NCBI GenBank assembly: GCA_016178075.1
Contig: JACOUA010000062.1
Location: 1-38,567 of the forward strand
Origin: Acidobacteriota bacterium
GTDB taxonomy: Bacteria > Acidobacteriota > Vicinamibacteria > Vicinamibacterales > JACQTH01
DNA length: 38,567 nucleotides
Direction: 5' to 3'
In this document: one piece after another, positions 5,557-35,637 of the stretch
Position numbering within the stretch: position 1 is the first letter of the stretch
Layout of the letters: every line of letters starts with the position of its first letter
Translations under genes and position numbers: made by a program
The notes under the pieces: model-generated
Told to the model about the DNA's origin: nothing
What the model saw: the letters and a program-made list of their open reading frames with translations, nothing else
The model's database searches: none

Positions 5557-7521
5557 ATGGTCGATCTGATTGCGCCGCTCCATCGCCATTTCGGCCACAC
5601 GGCGTTTCGCCCGGGCCAGGAGGATCTCGTCCGCGCGGTGCTGGACGGGCGCGACGTGCTCGCGGTCATGCCGACCGGATCGGGCAAGTCGCTCGGATTC
5701 CAATTGCCCGCTCTCCTGCTGCCGGGCACCACGCTGGTAGTTTCCCCGCTGATCTCCCTGATGAAAGACCAGGTGGACGAGCTGAATCGACGTGGCATCC
5801 GCGCGGCGGCGCTGCATTCGATGCTGTCGGGTGATGCTCGGCGCGAGATTCTGAGCTCCGCGCGGTCCGGCGACGTCCGCCTGCTGTACGTCGCGCCCGA
5901 GCGGTTCGCGTCGGATCACTTCGTTCGGACGCTCCGCGATCTCCCTGTCGCGAGATTCGTCGTCGACGAAGCGCATTGTGTGTCGGCATGGGGACACGAC
6001 TTCAGACCCGACTACCGCCGGCTGCGGCAGGCGGCCGCCGAGTGCCGTCGGAGCGACGCCCACCCGGGCCGGCCGCCCATCGCGGCCTTCACCGCGACGG
6101 CCACGCCAGAAGTCCGCGACGACATCGTCGACCTTCTCGGCCTGGCCGAGCCACAAGTCATCGTGGCGGGGTTCGATCGGCCCAACATCGAGCTGCGCGT
6201 ACGTCCCGTGACCGGCGAGTTGGAAAAGCGACAGCTTGTCACTGAACTCGTCGGTCATAAGCGAGCGCTCGTGTACGCGGCGACCCGCCGGAACGCAGAG
6301 TCGGCGGCAGAGGCGCTGCAAACCGCGGGTCACCAGGCCGCGGCGTATCACGCCGGCCTGGGCGATGCGGACCGAACCCGCGTGCAGGACCACTTCGCGT
6401 CCGGCGCATTGCTCGTCGTCTGCGCGACCAATGCGTTCGGCATGGGGATCGATCGCCCGGACGTCGAGGCGGTGGTGCACATCGATATCCCAGGATCGCT
6501 CGAGGCGTACTATCAGGAGATTGGCCGTGCGGGGAGGGACGCACGCCCGGCAATCGCGACGCTGCTCTGGAACTATGCCGACGTGAAGACACGCGAGTTT
6601 CTGATCAATCACGGGCGCGACGAGTCACCGGCGCGTCCAGGCGTGCCTCTCGATCCGGCCGAAGCCGCGCGTCGGAAGGAGCTCGAGCACAAGAAGCTTC
6701 GGCGCATGGTGGCGTACGCAGACAGCGCCGGCTGTCTGAGGGCAACGATTCTGCGATACTTCGGCGATCCTGCGGCACGAGAGCCGTGCGGGGCGTGTGG
6801 GAATTGCGATCGCCGCGCGCCGCTCGATGCCGACACGCGACTCCTGGTTCGGAAGATCCTGTCGGGCATCGCGAGAGGCGGCGAGCGGTACGGCCGGCGC
6901 AGAATCGCCGCGATGCTCATCGGCAACGTCGACGATCTGCCCGAGCCGCTGACGCGATTGTCCACGACCGGCCTGTTGCGGAACGAACAACCCCGGACGA
7001 TCGAGCGGTGGATCGACGCGGCGTGTGGGGCCGGGTTGATTGGTGTGTCAGAGGACCAGTATCGGACGCTCGGCTTGACACCGCTCGGCCGGGACGTGAT
7101 GGCCGGTCGCGTCGAGGATGTCAGGATGGCCGTGCCGCTGGTCCGTCAACCGTTCTCGCGCCGACATGCCTCGGGGCAACTCCGTGTGAGGCGGCGCGGC
7201 GCCGATCGGCCTGAACGCGGATACGGGCGCGTGGGATCAACCGAGGCGCCGGGAGTGGACGAGGAAGGCGGCGCGGCCAAGCCGCTCGAATCGGTCGTCG
7301 CGACGCTGCGCGCCTGGCGGCTCGAAGAGGCGCGCAAGCGGGCGATCGCCCCGTTCGTCATCCTGCACGATCGAACGCTCGTTGCCATTGCGACCACGCT
7401 GCCGCGCTCGTCCGCGGAGTTGCACGCCGTGCCTGGCATCGGACCTGCGAAGCTCGCGGCGTACGGCGACGCGATCCTGGCCGTGATTGAATCGATCGTC
7501 GCTTCCGTCAACACCCGATGA
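5557..7521 (+). CDS. recQ: ATP-dependent DNA helicase RecQ
   Basis: MVDLIAPLHRHFGHTAFRPGQEDLVRAVLDGRDVLAVMPTGSGKS, VVDEAHCVSAWGHDFRPDY, Zn-binding CLRATILRYFGDPAAREPCGACGNCD, C-terminal HRDC-like AVPGIGPAKLAAYGDAILAVI. Confidence 0.95.
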   Translation: MVDLIAPLHRHFGHTAFRPGQEDLVRAVLDGRDVLAVMPTGSGKSLGFQLPALLLPGTTLVVSPLISLMKDQVDELNRRGIRAAALHSMLSGDARREILSSARSGDVRLLYVAPERFASDHFVRTLRDLPVARFVVDEAHCVSAWGHDFRPDYRRLRQAAAECRRSDAHPGRPPIAAFTATATPEVRDDIVDLLGLAEPQVIVAGFDRPNIELRVRPVTGELEKRQLVTELVGHKRALVYAATRRNAESAAEALQTAGHQAAAYHAGLGDADRTRVQDHFASGALLVVCATNAFGMGIDRPDVEAVVHIDIPGSLEAYYQEIGRAGRDARPAIATLLWNYADVKTREFLINHGRDESPARPGVPLDPAEAARRKELEHKKLRRMVAYADSAGCLRATILRYFGDPAAREPCGACGNCDRRAPLDADTRLLVRKILSGIARGGERYGRRRIAAMLIGNVDDLPEPLTRLSTTGLLRNEQPRTIERWIDAACGAGLIGVSEDQYRTLGLTPLGRDVMAGRVEDVRMAVPLVRQPFSRRHASGQLRVRRRGADRPERGYGRVGSTEAPGVDEEGGAAKPLESVVATLRAWRLEEARKRAIAPFVILHDRTLVAIATTLPRSSAELHAVPGIGPAKLAAYGDAILAVIESIVASVNTR

Positions 7522-8650: not shown

Positions 8651-9427
8651 GTGACCATCCATCAATCGCGTCTTCGGTTTTTCGTCGGCGCCGCCGCCGT
8701 TGCAGCCGCGCTGACGCTTTCGGCCATCGCGCTGACGGCGCAAGGGGGCCCCGCCCCGCAGACGCCCTTCGACTCCGCTCAGGGCAGGCGCCCGATGAAG
8801 ATCGGCCTCATCGGGTCCGGGCAGCAGGGCGGCGCGCTGGGCCTCTTGTGGGCGAAGGCGGGTCACGAGGTGCTCTTCTCGTCCCGCCATCCAGAGAACT
8901 TGAAAGATCTCGTCGCGCGCGCCGGGCCGAAGGCGCGTGCCGGCACGCCGCAGGAAGCCGCGACCTTCGGTGACGTCATTCTGATCGCCGTGCCGTACGG
9001 CGCAACGCCGCAAGTCGGGCGCGACTACGCGCCGCTGATGAAAGGCAAGATCGTGATCGATTGCGGGAACCCGCGCGAGGACCGCGACGGCCCGATGGCC
9101 AACGACGCGATCGCGAAAGGGACCGGCGTGGCGTCTGCGGAGTTTCTGCCGGGCGTCCGGCTTGTGCGCGCGTTCAACGCGATCAGCTTCACGATGCTGC
9201 AGAAAGAGGCGCATCGCGCCGGAGAACGGGTGGGGATCCCGGTGGCTGGTGACGATCAGGCGGCCGTCGCGACCGTCGTCAGGCTCGTCGTGGACGCGGG
9301 CTTCGACCCGGTGGTCGTCGGCCCGCTCTCGCGCGCCAGGGAGTTCGACCGGGGCACGCCTGTCTACGTGAAGGGCATGACCGCCCGTCAACTGCGCGAG
9401 GCCCTGAAACTCCCCCCGAGACCCTAG
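8651..9427 (+). CDS. NADPH-dependent F420 reductase-like / NAD(P)-binding oxidoreductase, secreted
   Basis: GTG start preceded by AGGAGG; signal peptide; MKIGLIGSGQQGGALGLLWAKAGHEVLFSSRHPENLKDL...FNAISFTMLQ. Confidence 0.85.
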   Translation: MTIHQSRLRFFVGAAAVAAALTLSAIALTAQGGPAPQTPFDSAQGRRPMKIGLIGSGQQGGALGLLWAKAGHEVLFSSRHPENLKDLVARAGPKARAGTPQEAATFGDVILIAVPYGATPQVGRDYAPLMKGKIVIDCGNPREDRDGPMANDAIAKGTGVASAEFLPGVRLVRAFNAISFTMLQKEAHRAGERVGIPVAGDDQAAVATVVRLVVDAGFDPVVVGPLSRAREFDRGTPVYVKGMTARQLREALKLPPRP

Positions 9428-23825: not shown

Positions 23826-24020
23826 TATCCGCCCGCCGCCCGTCGAGTTGTGAGACCATTACCTCCCGCTGGCCGAACAGGCGGTGAGACTGCAAATCAG
23901 ATAAGGCCGAAGCGCGGAGCGGGGAGGAAGGGGCCCCGCGAGCGCGAGGCTTGGCGGGGTGCAGCCGCCTTCGCGCAAGGCTTCGGCGGCCCGGCGAAGC
24001 TCGAAGAGCGGAGTCGGGGA

Positions 24021-24180
24021 CCCCGGGTTGAGACCGCGCGAGCGCAGTTCTGGAAAAACGCGCCGCAGGCCAGACTGCCGCGCAGGTCAGCACTTGACCG
24101 GCGCGGGTCGCTCAGCGCGGCGCCGAAGGCGTGTTTTCCGCGCGGCCGATAGGGGCGAGCACCAAACTGACCTGCTACCC
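24021..24180. repeat. Partial copy of the 32846-33159 MITE-like element
   Basis: Shared: gttctggaaaaacgcgccgcaggccagactgccgcgcaggtcag.acttgacc.gcgcgggtcgct and gccgaaggcgtgtttt.ccgc.cggccga..ggggcga.caccaa.ctgacc; left TIR missing. Confidence 0.8.
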
Positions 24181-27603: not shown

Positions 27604-29327
27604 TGCTCCGCGCGGCTTGTATGCTGTCGTTGGGTTTGGTGGCTGGCGGCATCATCCAACCTGCTTCGTCCCCGCAGAAGGCCCTCGGTTCGGTCACCTT
27701 CGTCGACGTAACGGCGAAGTCCGGTATTCGCTTCCGTCACAACAGCGGTGCGTTCGGCAAGAAGTACCTGCCGGAAACGCTGGGATCGGGGGTGGCCTTT
27801 CTGGACGTCGACGGTGACGGGTGGCAGGACATCTTTCTCGTCAACTCGACGAATTGGCCGGGCCGGAAGGGTAAACCGTCGTTCTCCGCGCTCTACCGGA
27901 ACAAGGGCGATGGCACCTTCACCGATATCACGACGGCGTCTGGACTGCAGGTGGAGCTGTACGGGCTCGGCGTTGCGAGCGCGGACTATGACAACGACGG
28001 CCTGGCCGATCTCTACATCACCGCGCTCGGGCGCAACCGCTTGTTTCGAAATCTTGGTGGATCCCGGTTCGCCGATGTCACCGACGGCGCCGGCGTCGGC
28101 GACCCGGGGTTTTCGACGAGCGCCGCCTGGATCGACTATGACCGCGACGGACGGCTGGACCTGTTCGTCTGCAACTACGTCGAGTGGTCCATCCAGAAGG
28201 ACCTGTTCTGCACGCTGGACGGGACAACGAAGTCGTACTGCACGCCGGAATCGTACGTGGGCCAGAGCTCTACGCTGTATCGGAACAGGGGCGACGGGAC
28301 GTTCGAGAACGTCACGCGCGCCGCCGGCTTGTACGATCCCGCGTCCAAGGCCTTGGGTGTGGCCCTCATCGACTACGACAACGACGCGTGGATGGATCTG
28401 TTCATCGCGAACGACACCCAGCCTAATCGGCTGTATCACAACAATCGCGACGGAACCTTCAACGACGTCGGCGTGATGGCGGGCGTGGCGTTCAATGAAG
28501 GCGGCGTGGCCCGGGCCGGCATGGGGGTCGATGCGGCGGACTATGACGGCTCGGGGCGCCAGAGTTTGATTATCGGGAACTTTTCGAACGAGATGATGGC
28601 CTTGTACACGAATGAGGGCACCGGACTCTTCATCGACGAAGCGCCCACGACCACAATCGGCAAGGCCTCGCTCCTGACCCTGACCTTCGCCTGTTTCTTC
28701 TTCGACTACGATCTCGACGGGTTGGTGGACATCTTCGCCGCCAACGGCCACGTGGCCGATGACATCGGACGCGTGCAGCCGACGGTCAAGTATGCGCAAC
28801 CGCCCCACCTCTTCCGCAATCTCGGGTCGCGCCACTTCGACGAGGTCACCGACCGCGTCGGTCCGGCCTTCAAGCGCGCGATGGTCGCCCGCGGTGCGGC
28901 GTATGGCGATTTCGATCGGGATGGTGATCTGGATCTGCTCGTGACGACCAACAACGGGCCGCCCCGACTGCTTCGCAACGATGGGGGCAACCACCTGAAC
29001 CGTCTGCGGGTCTCGACGATCGGCACGAGCTCGAATCGGGACGGAATTGGGACGAAGATTCAAGCGCTCATTGGGGGCAAGCCTGGCCCCTGGGCGATGG
29101 TGAAGACCGGATCGAGCTACTGCTCACAAAGCGAGCTGCCCCTCACACTGGGCCTCGGGACGGTGTCCAGGATCTCGGGCCTGCGCGTCACGTGGCCGAA
29201 CGGTCGTGTCGAAACCCTTCCGGCGACGGACGCCAATCAGGCCATCACGATCCAGGAGGGAAAAGGTATCATCCGCGCCGTGCCTTACGGACCGACGGGC
29301 GTTCCACCCACCACTTTGGCCCGATAG
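27603..29327 (+). CDS. CRTAC1 family protein (FG-GAP/VCBS repeats plus ASPIC/UnbV)
   Basis: Start overlaps preceding stop; GVAFLDVDGDGWQDIFLVNSTNWPG, NKGDGTFTDITTASGL, C-terminal GIGTKIQALIGGKPGPWAMVKTGSSYCSQSELPLTLGLGTVSRISGLRVTWPNGRVE. Confidence 0.93.
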   Translation: MLRAACMLSLGLVAGGIIQPASSPQKALGSVTFVDVTAKSGIRFRHNSGAFGKKYLPETLGSGVAFLDVDGDGWQDIFLVNSTNWPGRKGKPSFSALYRNKGDGTFTDITTASGLQVELYGLGVASADYDNDGLADLYITALGRNRLFRNLGGSRFADVTDGAGVGDPGFSTSAAWIDYDRDGRLDLFVCNYVEWSIQKDLFCTLDGTTKSYCTPESYVGQSSTLYRNRGDGTFENVTRAAGLYDPASKALGVALIDYDNDAWMDLFIANDTQPNRLYHNNRDGTFNDVGVMAGVAFNEGGVARAGMGVDAADYDGSGRQSLIIGNFSNEMMALYTNEGTGLFIDEAPTTTIGKASLLTLTFACFFFDYDLDGLVDIFAANGHVADDIGRVQPTVKYAQPPHLFRNLGSRHFDEVTDRVGPAFKRAMVARGAAYGDFDRDGDLDLLVTTNNGPPRLLRNDGGNHLNRLRVSTIGTSSNRDGIGTKIQALIGGKPGPWAMVKTGSSYCSQSELPLTLGLGTVSRISGLRVTWPNGRVETLPATDANQAITIQEGKGIIRAVPYGPTGVPPTTLAR

Positions 29328-29380
29328 TGGTCCGACCTAGACCACTACGTCAGCCTCAGGAGTGTCGCTGTACTGCGTTC

Positions 29381-32300
29381 ATGAACAAAGCCGCTCGTTC
29401 CTGCTGGCTGATGGCGGTTCTCGGTGTCGGGCTGTTCACAGGACATGCGGGGCGATCCGATCACCCGCAGGCGGTGAAGCCGGACGACCGGCGCGAAGCT
29501 GCGTATCGCGCCAACAACCGCGGTGTGGCGCTGCTCGAGCAATTCGCGTATCAGGCAGCGGTCGGAGCATTTCGACAGGCGATCGAGCTGGACCCGTCAC
29601 TCCGGCTGCCGCGGTTGAATCTGCCGATCGCGCTCTTCTACGCTGGCAGCGTCAAGGAAGCCACCACGCAAGCGGCCGCGGCGCGCGACAAGTATCCGGA
29701 CGCGCCACAACCTTCCTATCTGCTCGGCCTCGTCGCCCGCTCCGAGAACCGGCCAGACGAGGCGGCCACGGCGTTTCGGCACGTCCTCGAGATGGATAGC
29801 CAGGATGTCGGCGCCAAAGTGAATCTGGCCCAGGTGTACATCCAACAGCGGAAGTACGCCGAAGCGGCGACGCTCTGCGAGTCGGCGTTGGCGATCGAGC
29901 CATACAACGCGACCGCCGCGTACAACCGGGCGATCGCGTTGGTGAGGGCCGGCAGCCGCGACCGAGGGCAGGCGGCCATGCAGCGCTTTCAGGAGCTGCG
30001 CGCCAGCGCCTACTCCGTTACCTACTCTCAAAACTATCTGGAGCAAGGCCGCTACGCGGAGGCCGTCTCGTCGACAGGCGCCGAGCCGGAGCTGGTGAGC
30101 ACGGAACCACCGCCGGTCGTCTTCGCTGATGCCACGGCCAGCTTACTCGACGGCGAGGGCGGCCGGTCGGAGGCCGCTCAACTCGGGCAGGTGGCATCGC
30201 CGACTGGTGGCGTCACGCTGGCGGACATCGATGGTGATGGGGACCTTGACGTGATCAGCACGGGAGCGACCGTGCGCGTGCTGAAAAACGACCGCCCGCG
30301 CCTGGTCGACGTGACGCGACAGGTCGGACTCGCGATGGTTGGCGGCCCGACGACCGGAGCGGTGGCGGGCGACTTCAACAACGACAGCAGAATCGACCTC
30401 CTCCTCCTGGGCTCCACCGGCCAGCGGCTGTTTGTCCAAGGCGGAAACGGCGTGTTCCGCGTGGTGGATCCCAGCGTCGGGCTGACGGGCCTGCCTGCGG
30501 TCGCCCGCTCAGCGGCCTTCGTCGACATCGATCACGATGGCGACCTCGATATCTTCGTGGGAGGTCCCACAAGCCGACTGATGCGGAACAACGGGAATGG
30601 CACCTTCACTGACATCACCACGGCGTCCGGTCTCGATGGAGTCGCCGCCGTGGTGGCGGTGGCTCCGACCGACTTCGACAACCGTCGCGACATCGACCTC
30701 TTGATCGCGTCGCACGGCACGCGCCCGAGGCTTTTTCGCAATCTCCGTAACGGCTCTTTTGTCGACGTCGCCGCGTCGGTTGGCCTGCCCGACGGCGGGC
30801 CGTACACGACGATGGCGGTGGGTGATGTCAACAAGGACGGGTTCACCGACGCGTTCTTCGGTCGGGAGGCGGCCACGGGTCTCTGGGCCATCAGCGACGG
30901 GCGTGGGCGCTTCCGCCTCGAGAACGCCCCGCCGAGCTCGCAAGACACGACCGCCGCCCAGATCTTCGATTACGACAACGATGGTCTGCTCGACGTGTTT
31001 TCCATCACCCGCGATGGGCCGCGAGTCTTGCGGAATGCGGGCCGTTTGTGGCAGGAGCAGACTGGTCGCGCGCTTTCAAAGGAGGTGCAGGACGGAGCTC
31101 GAGCCGCGGGCGGCGTGACCGCCATCGCATCCGGCGATCTCGATCTCGATGGGGACACCGACGTCGTGGCCCGCCTGCAGACCGGAGCGTTGCGCATCTG
31201 GCGCAACGATGGCGGGAACCGAAACCGGTCGCTTCGCGTCCGCCTCACCGGTCGAGTCAGCAACCGTGGAGGCGTGGGCGCCAAGGTCGAGGTCCGCGCG
31301 GGAAGCCTGTATGAAAAGCTCGAGACCGCCGCAACGGCGCCGCCGACGGCGCCGGCGGACGTGGTCTTCGGGCTCGGGCGCCGCAGCGCGGCCGACGTCG
31401 TCCGAATCCTGTGGCCCGCCGGAATCCTCCAGACGGAGACGAACCTGGGCGAGGCCGTCCCTTCTGCCGGGCTGAGCATCCTGGAACTGGATCGGAAACC
31501 CTCGTCATGCCCGTATCTCTACGCGTGGAACGGCCAGCGGTTCGCGTTCGTGACCGACTTCCTCGGTGGCGGCGAGATGGGCTCGTGGGTTGCCCCGAAC
31601 GTGCGCAACGTTCCTGATCCGGATGAGTACGTTCGGATGACCGACCAGCAGTTGAAGCCGCGGGATGGCAGAGTCGAGATCCGGGTCACGAACGAGCTGG
31701 AAGAAGCCCTGTTCCTGGACGAGGTCAAGCTGCTCGCCGTGACGCACCCGGCAGAGGTCGAGGTCTACCCCGACGAGGGCATGCGAGCGAGGCCCCGACC
31801 CTTCCGGTTGTTTGCCACGCGGGACGCGCACGCGCCCATCGCCGCCATCGATGATCACGGTCACGATGTCCTCGCAAAGATTTCGCACCTCGATCGGAGT
31901 TATCCGGACGATTTCGAGCTCCTGCCGATCCGGGGCTACGCGCGCGAGCACGCCGTCACGGTTGAACTTCCGGCGGGCGCTCTGCCTGCGAACGCGGCCG
32001 GGGCACGAACCGTGCTGCTGCTCACCGGCTGGACCGATTACGCATTCTCGTCCGACAACGTGGCCGCGCATCAAGCGGGCCTGAGCCTCAGCCCGCCTGC
32101 GCTGCAGGCGGAGGGTCCCGACGGCCGGTGGCGAACCGTCGACCCTGACGTTGGCGTGCCGGTGGGCCGGCCGCAGACGCTCGTCGTGGATATCACCACG
32201 TTCCTGCGTGAGAGCCGGCGATTCCGAATCGTCACCACGATGCGGGTTTATTGGGATCGGATACTCGTGGCGACGGCGATCCCGGATGTCCCGACGCCAC

Positions 32301-32791
32301 GGGCGCTCGCGAGGCGTTCCGCGAATCTGGCGTGGCGGGGCTTCTCGGCGGAGATCACCGCGGACGGCCGCGAGCCGCTTGCCTACGACTACGACCGGAT
32401 CTTGTTCGTCTCGCCGTGGAAGCTCATGCCGGGACGCTATACGCGCGAGGGCGACGTCTCGGAGCTCGTCGCGCGCGCGGACGATCGATTCGTCGTGTCA
32501 CGGCCCGGCGACGCGTTGGCGTTGTCGTTTGACGCCTCCGCGCTGCCCCCGTTGCCTCCGCGTACTCGCCGCACCTTCCTCCTCCACAGCGTCGGCTATA
32601 GCAAGGAAATGGACCTGCACTCGGCCAGTCCAGACGAGGCGCTGCCGATACCGTTTCGAGCCATGCGTCGCTATCCGTACACATCGCCCGAGCGCTATCC
32701 CCACGACCAGGATTTCGATCGCTTCCATACGCGCGTGGTGTCCCGATCCATTCCAGCCCTCCATGCTGCAGGTCCTCTTCTCGATCGGTAG
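29381..32791 (+). CDS. TPR plus VCBS/CRTAC1-like protein with large uncharacterised C-terminal region
   Basis: MNKAARSCWLMAVLGVGLFTG signal; TPRs; GGVTLADIDGDGDLDVIS repeats; GRVSNRGGVGAKVEVRAGSLYEKLET UnbV-like; then ~430 aa from SCPYLYAWNGQRFAFVTDFLGGGEMGSW. Confidence 0.9.
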   Translation: MNKAARSCWLMAVLGVGLFTGHAGRSDHPQAVKPDDRREAAYRANNRGVALLEQFAYQAAVGAFRQAIELDPSLRLPRLNLPIALFYAGSVKEATTQAAAARDKYPDAPQPSYLLGLVARSENRPDEAATAFRHVLEMDSQDVGAKVNLAQVYIQQRKYAEAATLCESALAIEPYNATAAYNRAIALVRAGSRDRGQAAMQRFQELRASAYSVTYSQNYLEQGRYAEAVSSTGAEPELVSTEPPPVVFADATASLLDGEGGRSEAAQLGQVASPTGGVTLADIDGDGDLDVISTGATVRVLKNDRPRLVDVTRQVGLAMVGGPTTGAVAGDFNNDSRIDLLLLGSTGQRLFVQGGNGVFRVVDPSVGLTGLPAVARSAAFVDIDHDGDLDIFVGGPTSRLMRNNGNGTFTDITTASGLDGVAAVVAVAPTDFDNRRDIDLLIASHGTRPRLFRNLRNGSFVDVAASVGLPDGGPYTTMAVGDVNKDGFTDAFFGREAATGLWAISDGRGRFRLENAPPSSQDTTAAQIFDYDNDGLLDVFSITRDGPRVLRNAGRLWQEQTGRALSKEVQDGARAAGGVTAIASGDLDLDGDTDVVARLQTGALRIWRNDGGNRNRSLRVRLTGRVSNRGGVGAKVEVRAGSLYEKLETAATAPPTAPADVVFGLGRRSAADVVRILWPAGILQTETNLGEAVPSAGLSILELDRKPSSCPYLYAWNGQRFAFVTDFLGGGEMGSWVAPNVRNVPDPDEYVRMTDQQLKPRDGRVEIRVTNELEEALFLDEVKLLAVTHPAEVEVYPDEGMRARPRPFRLFATRDAHAPIAAIDDHGHDVLAKISHLDRSYPDDFELLPIRGYAREHAVTVELPAGALPANAAGARTVLLLTGWTDYAFSSDNVAAHQAGLSLSPPALQAEGPDGRWRTVDPDVGVPVGRPQTLVVDITTFLRESRRFRIVTTMRVYWDRILVATAIPDVPTPRALARRSANLAWRGFSAEITADGREPLAYDYDRILFVSPWKLMPGRYTREGDVSELVARADDRFVVSRPGDALALSFDASALPPLPPRTRRTFLLHSVGYSKEMDLHSASPDEALPIPFRAMRRYPYTSPERYPHDQDFDRFHTRVVSRSIPALHAAGPLLDR

Positions 32792-32845: not shown

Positions 32846-33159
32846 CGACTACTCGGTAGTGGGTCAGATTGGTGTTCGCCCCGTTGAGGCCGCGCGAGAA
32901 CGGTTCTGGAAAAACGCGCCGCAGGCCAGACTGCCGCGCAGGTCAGAACTTGACCTGCGCGGGTCGCTAAAGGGTTTTTCACTTCGCTGTAGCGTAGTTC
33001 TCAGTTATCAGTCATCAGTTTTCAGTTATTTGCGGGCGAGATCCGAACTGAAAACTGACTACTGAGAACTGAAAACTGCATTAAAGGCGATGCCGAAGGC
33101 GTGTTTTTCCGCACGGCCGAACGGGGCGAACACCAATCTGACCCACTACCGAGTAGTCG
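32846..33159. mobile_element. MITE-like element with 40-bp perfect TIRs and a nested inverted repeat
   Basis: cgactactcggtagtgggtcagattggtgttcgccccgtt at 32846-32885 is the exact reverse complement of aacggggcgaacaccaatctgacccactaccgagtagtcg ending at 33159. Confidence 0.85.
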
Positions 33160-33235: not shown

Positions 33236-34492
33236 GTGGGAACGATCGACAACCGGTGGCGCCATGGCCCCACGCGCCGCCAGGCCCTCCTGGCATTGGC
33301 CGGGATGCTGGCTGGCTCGCCACTTCTCCGCGCGCAACGAGATCCGCATCCGATAACAGGGCACAAACGGGTGCCCGGGCTCGACGAGATGATGACCGCG
33401 TTCGACTTCGAGCCGATCTGTTTCGCGAACGTGGTGTTGGCCCGATACGAGTACATGGCCCGCGCGAGCGAGTCAGAATTCACGCTGCGCCGAAATCGCG
33501 AGGCGTTCGAGTGGGTCGATCTCGTCGAGCGTCCGGGCGCGGCGACCGCCGCGCTGCAGACGTCCACCGAGGTGCTGGGGATCAAGATGGATTTTCCGAT
33601 CATGATCGCCCCCACCGCCGCGCAGCGAGACCTGCACCCTGATGCCGAGTCCGCGATGTACCAGGGCGCATCCGCCGCGAAGACGCCCATGATCGTGGTC
33701 GGTCGCTCCACGATCCCAATTGAGAAAATCGCGCAGGCCGCCACCGGTCCACGATGGTCCCAGTTCTATCCGGTGCAGGATCTGAAGATCAGCCGCGAGA
33801 CGATCGAGACCTTCCAGGCGGCGGGGGCGAGGGCGCTCGTGGTGACGGTCGATCAGCAAACGGATACCGGGTACGAGCGCGACTTGCACAATCGAAATCT
33901 CGGCGGTACCCCACGTGGCGCCTCTGGTGGCCGGGGCGGCGGTGCGCCCGAACAGGGTCGGGGCGGACGCGGTGGTGGATCAGCGGCGCCGGCTCCGATG
34001 CAGGGTCCGGCTCTGTACCGCGTCATCCCTGCCCGGCTCTGGTACACCTGGAAGTACCTCGATGACATCCGGGCGTTCACCAAGATCCCGATTCTCCTCA
34101 AAGGCATCCTGACCGCCGAAGACGCCAAGCTGTGCGTCGAACGCGGCTTCGACGGGGTCATCGTCTCGAATCATGGCGGCCGATCGATGGACTACGGACC
34201 GTCGACGTTGGAGGTCTTGCCGGAGATCGTGGACGCGGTGGGCGGAAAAATCCCGGTGCTGATCGATGGCGGCTTTCGCCGCGGAAGCGACATCGTGAAG
34301 GCGATGGCGCTCGGCGCGAGCGCGGTTTGCCTCGGGCGCGCGCCACGATGGGGCCTCGGAGCCTTCGGTCCGCAGGGCGTGCAGCGCCTGCTGGAAATCC
34401 TGCAGGCCGAGTTCCTCGAGGCCATGGCGAGAACCGGACGCACCACATTGGCGGCGCTCGACCGACGCGCGGTGAGGGTGAACTTCACATGA
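33236..34492 (+). CDS. FMN-dependent alpha-hydroxy-acid oxidase/dehydrogenase, Tat-like signal
   Basis: GTG start; RRQALLALAGMLAGSPLLRAQ; MDFPIMIAPTAAQRDLHPDAESAMYQGASAAKTPMIV, GFDGVIVSNHGGRSMDYGPSTLEVLPEIV, LIDGGFRRGSDIVKAMALGASAVCLGR. Confidence 0.93.
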   Translation: MGTIDNRWRHGPTRRQALLALAGMLAGSPLLRAQRDPHPITGHKRVPGLDEMMTAFDFEPICFANVVLARYEYMARASESEFTLRRNREAFEWVDLVERPGAATAALQTSTEVLGIKMDFPIMIAPTAAQRDLHPDAESAMYQGASAAKTPMIVVGRSTIPIEKIAQAATGPRWSQFYPVQDLKISRETIETFQAAGARALVVTVDQQTDTGYERDLHNRNLGGTPRGASGGRGGGAPEQGRGGRGGGSAAPAPMQGPALYRVIPARLWYTWKYLDDIRAFTKIPILLKGILTAEDAKLCVERGFDGVIVSNHGGRSMDYGPSTLEVLPEIVDAVGGKIPVLIDGGFRRGSDIVKAMALGASAVCLGRAPRWGLGAFGPQGVQRLLEILQAEFLEAMARTGRTTLAALDRRAVRVNFT

Positions 34493-35637
34493 GCAACCTG
34501 AAAGTCAGTCGGCGCGAGGCGCTGGGGAGCGTGGCGGGACTCATCGCCGGGCCCGGCCTGAGCGGAGTCGAAGGCCCCGGCCTGAGCGCAGTCGAAGGCC
34601 CCGGCCTGAGCGGAGTCGAAGGCCCCGGCCTGAGCGCAGTCGAAGGCCCGTCCCTTGCTCGCGGGCAGGTAGCAAAGGGGACACCTCCGCCACGACGTCC
34701 GCCACGGGATGAGCTCGTGAACGCCCTCGAGTTCGAGGACGTGGCCAAGCTCATGCTGCCTGCGGCCGTGTATTCGACGATCGCGGGCAGCGACCGTGCG
34801 GCGTTCGACCGGATCACATTTCGGCCGCGCATGCTGGTCCCCACGCTGGATCTCGACTTGAGCGTGGACCTGTTCGGGGAGAAGCACCTTGCGCCGATCC
34901 TCGTGGGCCCCGTCGCCGAGCAGCGGCAGTACCACGCTGAGGGCGAGCTGGCCACCGTGCGGGGCGCGTCCGCGGCGAAGACAGGAGTCATCGTCAGCAG
35001 CCGCTCGAGCGTGCCGATCGCCGAGATTGCGGCACAGGCCAAGACGCCCCTGTGGTATTCGGTGTACGCGGCGGACGCCAGCGCACGAAAGCAGGTTGAT
35101 CAGGCGATCGCGGCGGGCTGCAAGGTCGTCTGCGTCACCGTCGGCGCCTCGCTTGATGCCGGCCGCGCGACATCCAAGGTGCCTGCGGATTGGAAGGCTG
35201 TCGATCGGATCCGGCAGGGTCTCGACCTCCCGATCGTGATCAAAGGCGTGATGACACCCGAGGACGCGAACGCGGCGATCGCGCAAGGCGCGCGGGGCAT
35301 CGTCGTGTCGAACCACGGCGGCGTGGTGGCCGGCAGGGCGCCGCTTGAGGTCCTCGCGTCGATCGTCGACCTTGTCGGCGCGAAGATCACGGTGCTCGTC
35401 GATGGCAGCTTCCGGCGCGGAACCGACATCCTGAAGGCGCTCGTGTTCGGCGCACAGGCCGTGCTTCTCGCGAGGCCTGTGATGTGGGGGCTTGCGGCGT
35501 ACGGAGCCGAAGGTGTGCAGAGCGTGATCGAGCTGCTGCAAACCACGCTTGGCCGGAACTTCGGCATGATCGGCGCGCCGAATCTCAAAAGCCTGAATCG
35601 CGCCATGGTGAAGGTTCACGCCGAACGGAAAACGTGA
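34489..35637 (+). CDS. FMN-dependent alpha-hydroxy-acid oxidase/dehydrogenase paralog
   Basis: ATG overlaps preceding TGA; same family motifs ARGIVVSNHGGVVAGRAPLEVLASIVD, VDGSFRRGTDILKALVFGAQAVLLARPVMWGLA. Confidence 0.92.
   Translation: MSNLKVSRREALGSVAGLIAGPGLSGVEGPGLSAVEGPGLSGVEGPGLSAVEGPSLARGQVAKGTPPPRRPPRDELVNALEFEDVAKLMLPAAVYSTIAGSDRAAFDRITFRPRMLVPTLDLDLSVDLFGEKHLAPILVGPVAEQRQYHAEGELATVRGASAAKTGVIVSSRSSVPIAEIAAQAKTPLWYSVYAADASARKQVDQAIAAGCKVVCVTVGASLDAGRATSKVPADWKAVDRIRQGLDLPIVIKGVMTPEDANAAIAQGARGIVVSNHGGVVAGRAPLEVLASIVDLVGAKITVLVDGSFRRGTDILKALVFGAQAVLLARPVMWGLAAYGAEGVQSVIELLQTTLGRNFGMIGAPNLKSLNRAMVKVHAERKT
34551..34647 (+). repeat. Four in-frame 24-bp tandem repeats
   Basis: (ggccccggcctgagcgSagtcgaa)x4, S alternating g/c, encoding GPGLSGVE-GPGLSAVE-GPGLSGVE-GPGLSAVE. 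Confidence 0.95.

Follow-up and report, generated by a model that had tools for sequence, protein, structure and literature searches.

Introduction

MITEs are gene-free elements of less than 300 bp that have their terminal inverted repeats (TIRs) in common with an autonomous element, are flanked by target duplications and occur in tens of copies. The family described here, called A, has the same properties. In contrast to other MITEs, its copy in the window, which means the whole analysed stretch of 38,567 nucleotides from an Acidobacteriota bacterium, is interrupted by a second repeat and has homogenised arms. The single-ORF transposons of the IS1 family (PF03400) have a domain, GG-starting ends and an 8-9-bp target duplication, all of which are shared by the full-length relatives of A reported below. 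Unlike the IS1 family, A has no transposase, and the full-length relatives carry passenger genes and score below the cut-off of the IS1 model NF033558, which places them on a divergent IS1 branch. This branch may resemble the ISMhu11 group of ISfinder. The Correia-type and IS630-like TA-targeting repeats are about 110 bp long, with an imperfect TIR and TA boundaries, like the second repeat of the window, called B. The similarity is one of design, whereas a transposase with matching ends is missing in the case of B.

Template switching homogenises the arms of inverted repeats, and switching inside imperfect repeats is the established route to this result (PMC8604942, PMC7202029). In the quasi-palindrome template-switch mutations treated there (PMC7202029, PMC8604942), imperfect arms grow more alike or identical, and the same appears to have happened at our locus. 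In contrast to an experimental observation, our case is inferred from one natural allele against a family consensus.

Structure and surroundings of the 314-bp element

The initial annotation reported a 314-bp element with 40-bp perfect terminal inverted repeats, and the two arms were found to be exact over 40 bp. Inverted-repeat detection also gave them as 43 nt at 98%. The energy of single-strand folding of the 314 bp was -123 kcal/mol, compared with -48.7 +/- 4 kcal/mol for shuffled sequences. A chance origin of the structure is excluded because of this difference (z = -18.6). An internal hairpin that had been given as 10 bp is present, but its stem is longer, with 12 perfect pairs (32934-32945 / 32951-32962). 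The features discussed in the text are as follows, in window coordinates.

24027-24179, + strand: second copy of family A, left end lost, without B (sequence match)
29192-32791, + strand: upstream gene, TPR / FG-GAP / UnbV-ASPIC protein; ends 63 bp before the element
32846-32885, + strand: perfect 40-bp inverted repeat, left arm; 31 bp of element preceded by 9 bp of flank, right-arm-type sequence
32847-32854, no strand: left 8-bp flank GACTACTC, at the target-duplication position
32855-32969, + strand: MITE family A, left part, from the left terminus GGTAGTGGGTCAG (from family copies in the same genome)
32934-32962, + strand: internal hairpin of family A with a perfect 12-bp stem, found in most other copies and with mismatches in a few
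32968-32969, no strand: TA at the left edge of B, the target dinucleotide; B is bounded by YTA...YTA-R
32970-33081, + strand: family B repeat, 112 bp, with a left hairpin and a heptameric NNNACTG palindrome; inserted in A at TA, as judged by comparison of copies
33082-33083, no strand: TA at the right edge of B, putative target duplication (comparison with uninterrupted A copies)
33084-33150, + strand: MITE family A, right part, to the right terminus CTGACCCACTACC (from family copies in the same genome)
33120-33159, - strand: perfect 40-bp inverted repeat, right arm, pairing with the left arm
33151-33158, no strand: right 8-bp flank GAGTAGTC, at the target-duplication position
33236-34492, + strand: downstream gene, FMN-dependent dehydrogenase, 85 bp past the element; PF01070, E = 3e-101

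The FMN-dependent dehydrogenase gene has an orthologue in the congener with 81% identity. At the window locus, this downstream gene alone is orthologous in the congener, and the upstream region is different and rearranged. Therefore, an empty site between genomes was not obtained. Just 3' of the FMN-dependent dehydrogenase gene, at 34552-34649, a unit of 24 bp (CCCGGCCTGAGCGCAGTCGAAGGC) is repeated four times in tandem.

Family A: copies, ends and target duplications

The genome that contains the window is a draft of 4.96 Mb in 457 contigs with 87% completeness, and the repeat families were reconstructed from its individual loci. The search of this genome with the 314-bp query gave dozens of matches, and the strong ones outside the window covered only the middle ~120 bp. 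When the middle was removed from the query, a separate set of matches was obtained for the outer sequence, A, amounting to ~30 copies or fragments. The terminus of the intact copies is GGTAGTGGGTCAGTTTGGTG. This 20-bp TIR has 66 occurrences in the genome with up to three mismatches, while its reversed control has none. The intact copies are mostly 182-184 bp long, and five copies with an extra hairpin are 225-228 bp. The window copy of A without B is 182 bp and thus as long as the other copies (182-184 bp). Its family termini are GGTAG at 32855 and CTACC at 33150. Therefore, the outermost 9 bp of either arm belong to the flanks and not to the element. The sequence annotated as a single 314-bp element is real, but it is composed of two nested repeats, a 182-bp MITE holding a 112-bp second repeat. 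The 314 bp are very probably a nested pair, in which B was inserted at TA into the IS1-type MITE A and the left arm of A was overwritten by the right one. Transposition of the 314 bp as one whole mobile unit, to which the perfect 40-bp arms could point, is hardly credible. It is refuted within this assembly, where no second copy of the full unit exists. In the other A copies, the termini GGTAG/CTACC lie 9 bp inward of the reported ends and B is missing, and copies of B are found alone elsewhere.

The second copy that had been placed at 24021-24180 is real at 24027-24179. It is 88% identical, truncated at the left and without the inner insert. Genome-wide, the family amounts to ~30 copies or fragments. 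The absence of coding sequence and the mobility proposed for the element agree with these dispersed copies, which have no coding capacity. Target duplications, recommended as a check, were found. Six of the 18 other intact A copies (L033, L035, L037, L039, L041, and L043) are flanked by perfect 8-bp duplications, and one more (L032) has a duplication of 7/8. The number of perfect 8-bp duplications expected by chance among 18 copies is about 0.0003. The target duplication of the window copy itself is just 6/8. Fixation without copy-number variation, which had been named as an argument against the element, does not apply here, because A has ~30 copies in this genome versus three elements with the same TIR in the congener. 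The three elements in the congener, the only one searched, are ~251 bp long and have different interiors between the same ends.

Some other observations were made on the repeats. Three minimal versions of A (L068, L108, and L113) are 61-65 bp long and consist of hardly more than both ends. The stretch at 23910-24026 beside the second A copy is rich in GC and hairpins and resembles the flanks of other repeat copies (CCGGGGTCCGGGGCAGAGCCCCGG-like, L018, L049). It is possibly a third repeat family. A left-end fragment of A at 1346-1532 of L173 (G000:C84:9345-9531) continues straight into a putative BlaI/BlaR-type gene pair, recognised visually in the translation, so that the MITE sequence adjoins the beginning of the regulator gene.

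Insertion of repeat B into A

The A copies without B are uninterrupted and thus provide an empty site for B within the genome. For instance, the copy L040 reads GGGTCGCTGAAGGCGATGCC, and the window reads GGGTCGCTA-(B)-TA-AAGGCGATGCC. By this comparison of sequences, B is shown to have been inserted into the window copy of A at TA, and a duplication of the TA is the simplest reading. The left-end pattern of B was found at about 55 places in the same genome and once in each of two further genomes from the class. It was absent from the one congener searched. In nearly all of the 32 copies with both ends, the left boundary is YTA and the right boundary is YTA followed by a purine. Such boundaries are the hallmark of a TA-directed insertion. 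An IS630-type source for B was sought in the genome, and its three DDE_3 loci have no B-like ends. B is placed in no named family because a source transposase with matching ends was not found.

The absence of an IS630-type transposase with B-like ends from this genome would also fit a spread of B by another route, such as a REP/RAYT-type process or slippage of the heptamer repeats, instead of TA insertion as a MITE. The heptameric NNNACTG units and a GTAG motif ahead of the stem point in the same direction. On the other hand, nearly all 32 copies of B have sharp YTA edges at either side, the length of B is near-constant and its insertion into A is clean. The other route is considered rather unlikely, though it keeps some weight, and B as a TA-inserting MITE is the preferred reading.

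Probable homogenisation of the arms in the window copy

The 18 other intact A copies have a perfect TIR of at most 20-21 bp. Beyond the TIR, the two sides of the other copies differ consistently, with TGAAGCCCC on the left and CTCGCCCC on the right, and their left arm reads GTGTGAAGCCCC. In the window, both arms read GGTAGTGGGTCAGATTGGTGTTCGCCCC and the left arm is thus of the right-hand type. The two window arms also have in common two private substitutions relative to the family consensus, which is unique among the copies compared, and their symmetry extends 9 bp into the flanks. The 40-bp repeat annotated as the element terminus is exact, but it is peculiar to the window copy and is not the terminal repeat of the family. 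If the right arm was copied onto the left one, the right-type left arm, the shared private substitutions and the symmetry into the flanks are all explained. Therefore, this direction of copying is favoured, and quasi-palindrome template switching is most likely its process. The replaced left arm can be read from the alignment of copies, while the switching itself would be the event behind it.

Perfect arms could also result from insertion into a palindromic target or from an artefact of sequencing or assembly, such as a fold-back in the library. The flank is near-palindromic, since GACTACTC and GAGTAGTC match 6/8 as a direct repeat and 8/8 as an inverted repeat, and on another contig, C393, a further A copy is surrounded by what is probably a fold-back artefact. 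However, a palindromic target fails to explain the right-type sequence and the shared private substitutions within the left arm. As for an artefact, the window copy is well inside its contig and its flanks are unique. Both origins are judged improbable compared with template switching.

The copy on C393 was observed separately. This A copy (L036/L170, G000:C393 around 5628-5810) is near the contig end, and the sequences on its two sides form a perfect inverted repeat whose arms are at least 40 bp long. Its inverted flanks are probably a fold-back library or assembly artefact. They were not taken as biology because a perfect 40-bp palindrome lies near a contig end.

Full-length relatives and the transposase

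The 16-bp TIR core was found in 27 of the 193 genomes of the class, with no occurrence of the control. Both A and transposase-bearing elements have GGTAGTGGGTCAGTTT at their two ends. In relatives within the class, TIR pairs are separated by 2.6-4.6 kb and have duplications of 8 or 9 bp (L153, L154, L155, L157-L161, and L168), and L156 is without a clear target duplication. A full-length example of 2602 bp with the same ends is found in a marine proteobacterial MAG (L183). An Opitutaceae MAG contains a short MITE, L181, that shares these ends and has a duplication of 8 bp. A transposase with the same TIRs, which the initial annotation had proposed to look for, exists in the full-length elements of relatives. 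It is ~277 aa long, and each of L153-L155, L157-L161, L168, and L183 matches it. Six transposases of full-length elements were aligned and showed 59-79% identity. The three transposases tested with PF03400 (DDE_Tnp_IS1) passed the cut-off of 24.1 bits with 28.8-32.7 bits. Their scores with the NCBIfam IS1 equivalog NF033558 were 50-63 bits, below its cut-off of 100. Therefore, the full-length relatives are placed in the IS1 superfamily but not in canonical IS1. Since an IS1-superfamily transposase is encoded by transposons of relatives that share the 16-bp ends and have duplications of 8-9 bp, A is regarded as an IS1-superfamily MITE. The earlier description of a non-autonomous mobile element is borne out by the high copy number, the 8-bp duplications and the autonomous relatives with the same ends.

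We infer that A is mobilised in trans by IS1-type transposases. No intact transposase with exactly the ends of A was found in this draft (87% complete, 457 contigs), and the sole IS1-type gene in it, at the end of contig C84, is truncated to its C-terminal part and has GGTAGTGTCTCAGTTAGG as the adjacent end. In view of the incompleteness and fragmentation of the draft, a parent may well be missing from the assembly. Contig C84, with an A-like left end at 9345 and the IS1 gene, was considered as the parent of A and rejected: unrelated genes lie in between, and the transposase end is GGTAGTGTCTCAGTTAGG.

A structured-RNA repeat had been offered as the other identity of the element. In this case, a REP/BIME-like or terminator-like repeat, acting as structured RNA or in regulation, would have spread via its hairpins and not by transposition. 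The very strong fold of the 314 bp, the position between two co-oriented genes and the retention of the internal hairpin in most copies, along with a single paired double change (CCGTGC/GCACGG) seen in L050, could be read in this way. However, the paired change is equally possible through arm copying. There was no Rfam match at the gathering score, no promoter-like site was found around the element, and terminator-like sites were no commoner than chance. The features are those of transposition, namely exact 8-bp target duplications and ends in common with transposase-bearing elements. The RNA or regulatory repeat is largely refuted by the target duplications and is very improbable, and A is treated as an IS1-type MITE.

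Cargo of the full-length transposons

The full-length transposons have variable passenger genes that match models of the toxin-antitoxin or defence type. Fic/SoFic proteins are encoded in L156 and L159, an XRE protein with an ImmA-like peptidase in L154, and a Gp49/HTH pair (HigBA-like) in L160. An N6/N4 methylase with an Mrr domain is found in L157, an AAA protein in L158, and a DUF433 protein in L157 and L168. Moreover, all of L153-L161, L168, and L183 encode a basic protein of ~85 aa with a GKNPAAVALG.LGG.KGG.ARA-like motif. Four of these proteins were tested and matched nothing in Pfam and nothing significantly in NCBIfam. The protein was undetected in the genome of the window and in the congener, in a search without a positive control. 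A limited literature search found no description of a cargo-carrying IS1-type arrangement, and nothing relevant on ISMhu11, IS1-family MITEs or such an accessory protein. With somewhat less than even confidence, we suggest that the partners of A may form an undescribed branch of the IS1 superfamily, vehicles of defence and toxin-antitoxin genes with the ~85-aa protein, and that the MITEs here would be their fossils.

Proposed sequence of events and significance

In the proposed sequence of events, a single-ORF DDE transposase of the IS1 superfamily would first recognise the GGTAGTGGGTCAGTTT ends of A in trans. As a result, the ~183-bp MITE would be inserted with an 8-bp target duplication. Afterwards, the 112-bp B entered this copy at a TA dinucleotide. 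Before or after the entry of B, the right arm would overwrite the left one, most likely by replication template switching in the hairpin. The outcome is the 40-bp perfect repeat running 9 bp beyond the element end. No function beyond transposition is needed to explain the intergenic element.

The 314-bp finding is a real but ordinary genomic parasite, to which the nesting, the arm homogenisation and the autonomous relatives add interest. As a clear case from nature of a MITE with homogenised arms, it indicates that long perfect TIRs need not signal a young or intact element. Family A is a new family of IS1-type MITEs, with full-length same-end transposons in relatives, in a class for which the literature searched contained no IS1-type MITEs. 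The finding also points to IS1-type transposons with cargo and a conserved unknown protein.
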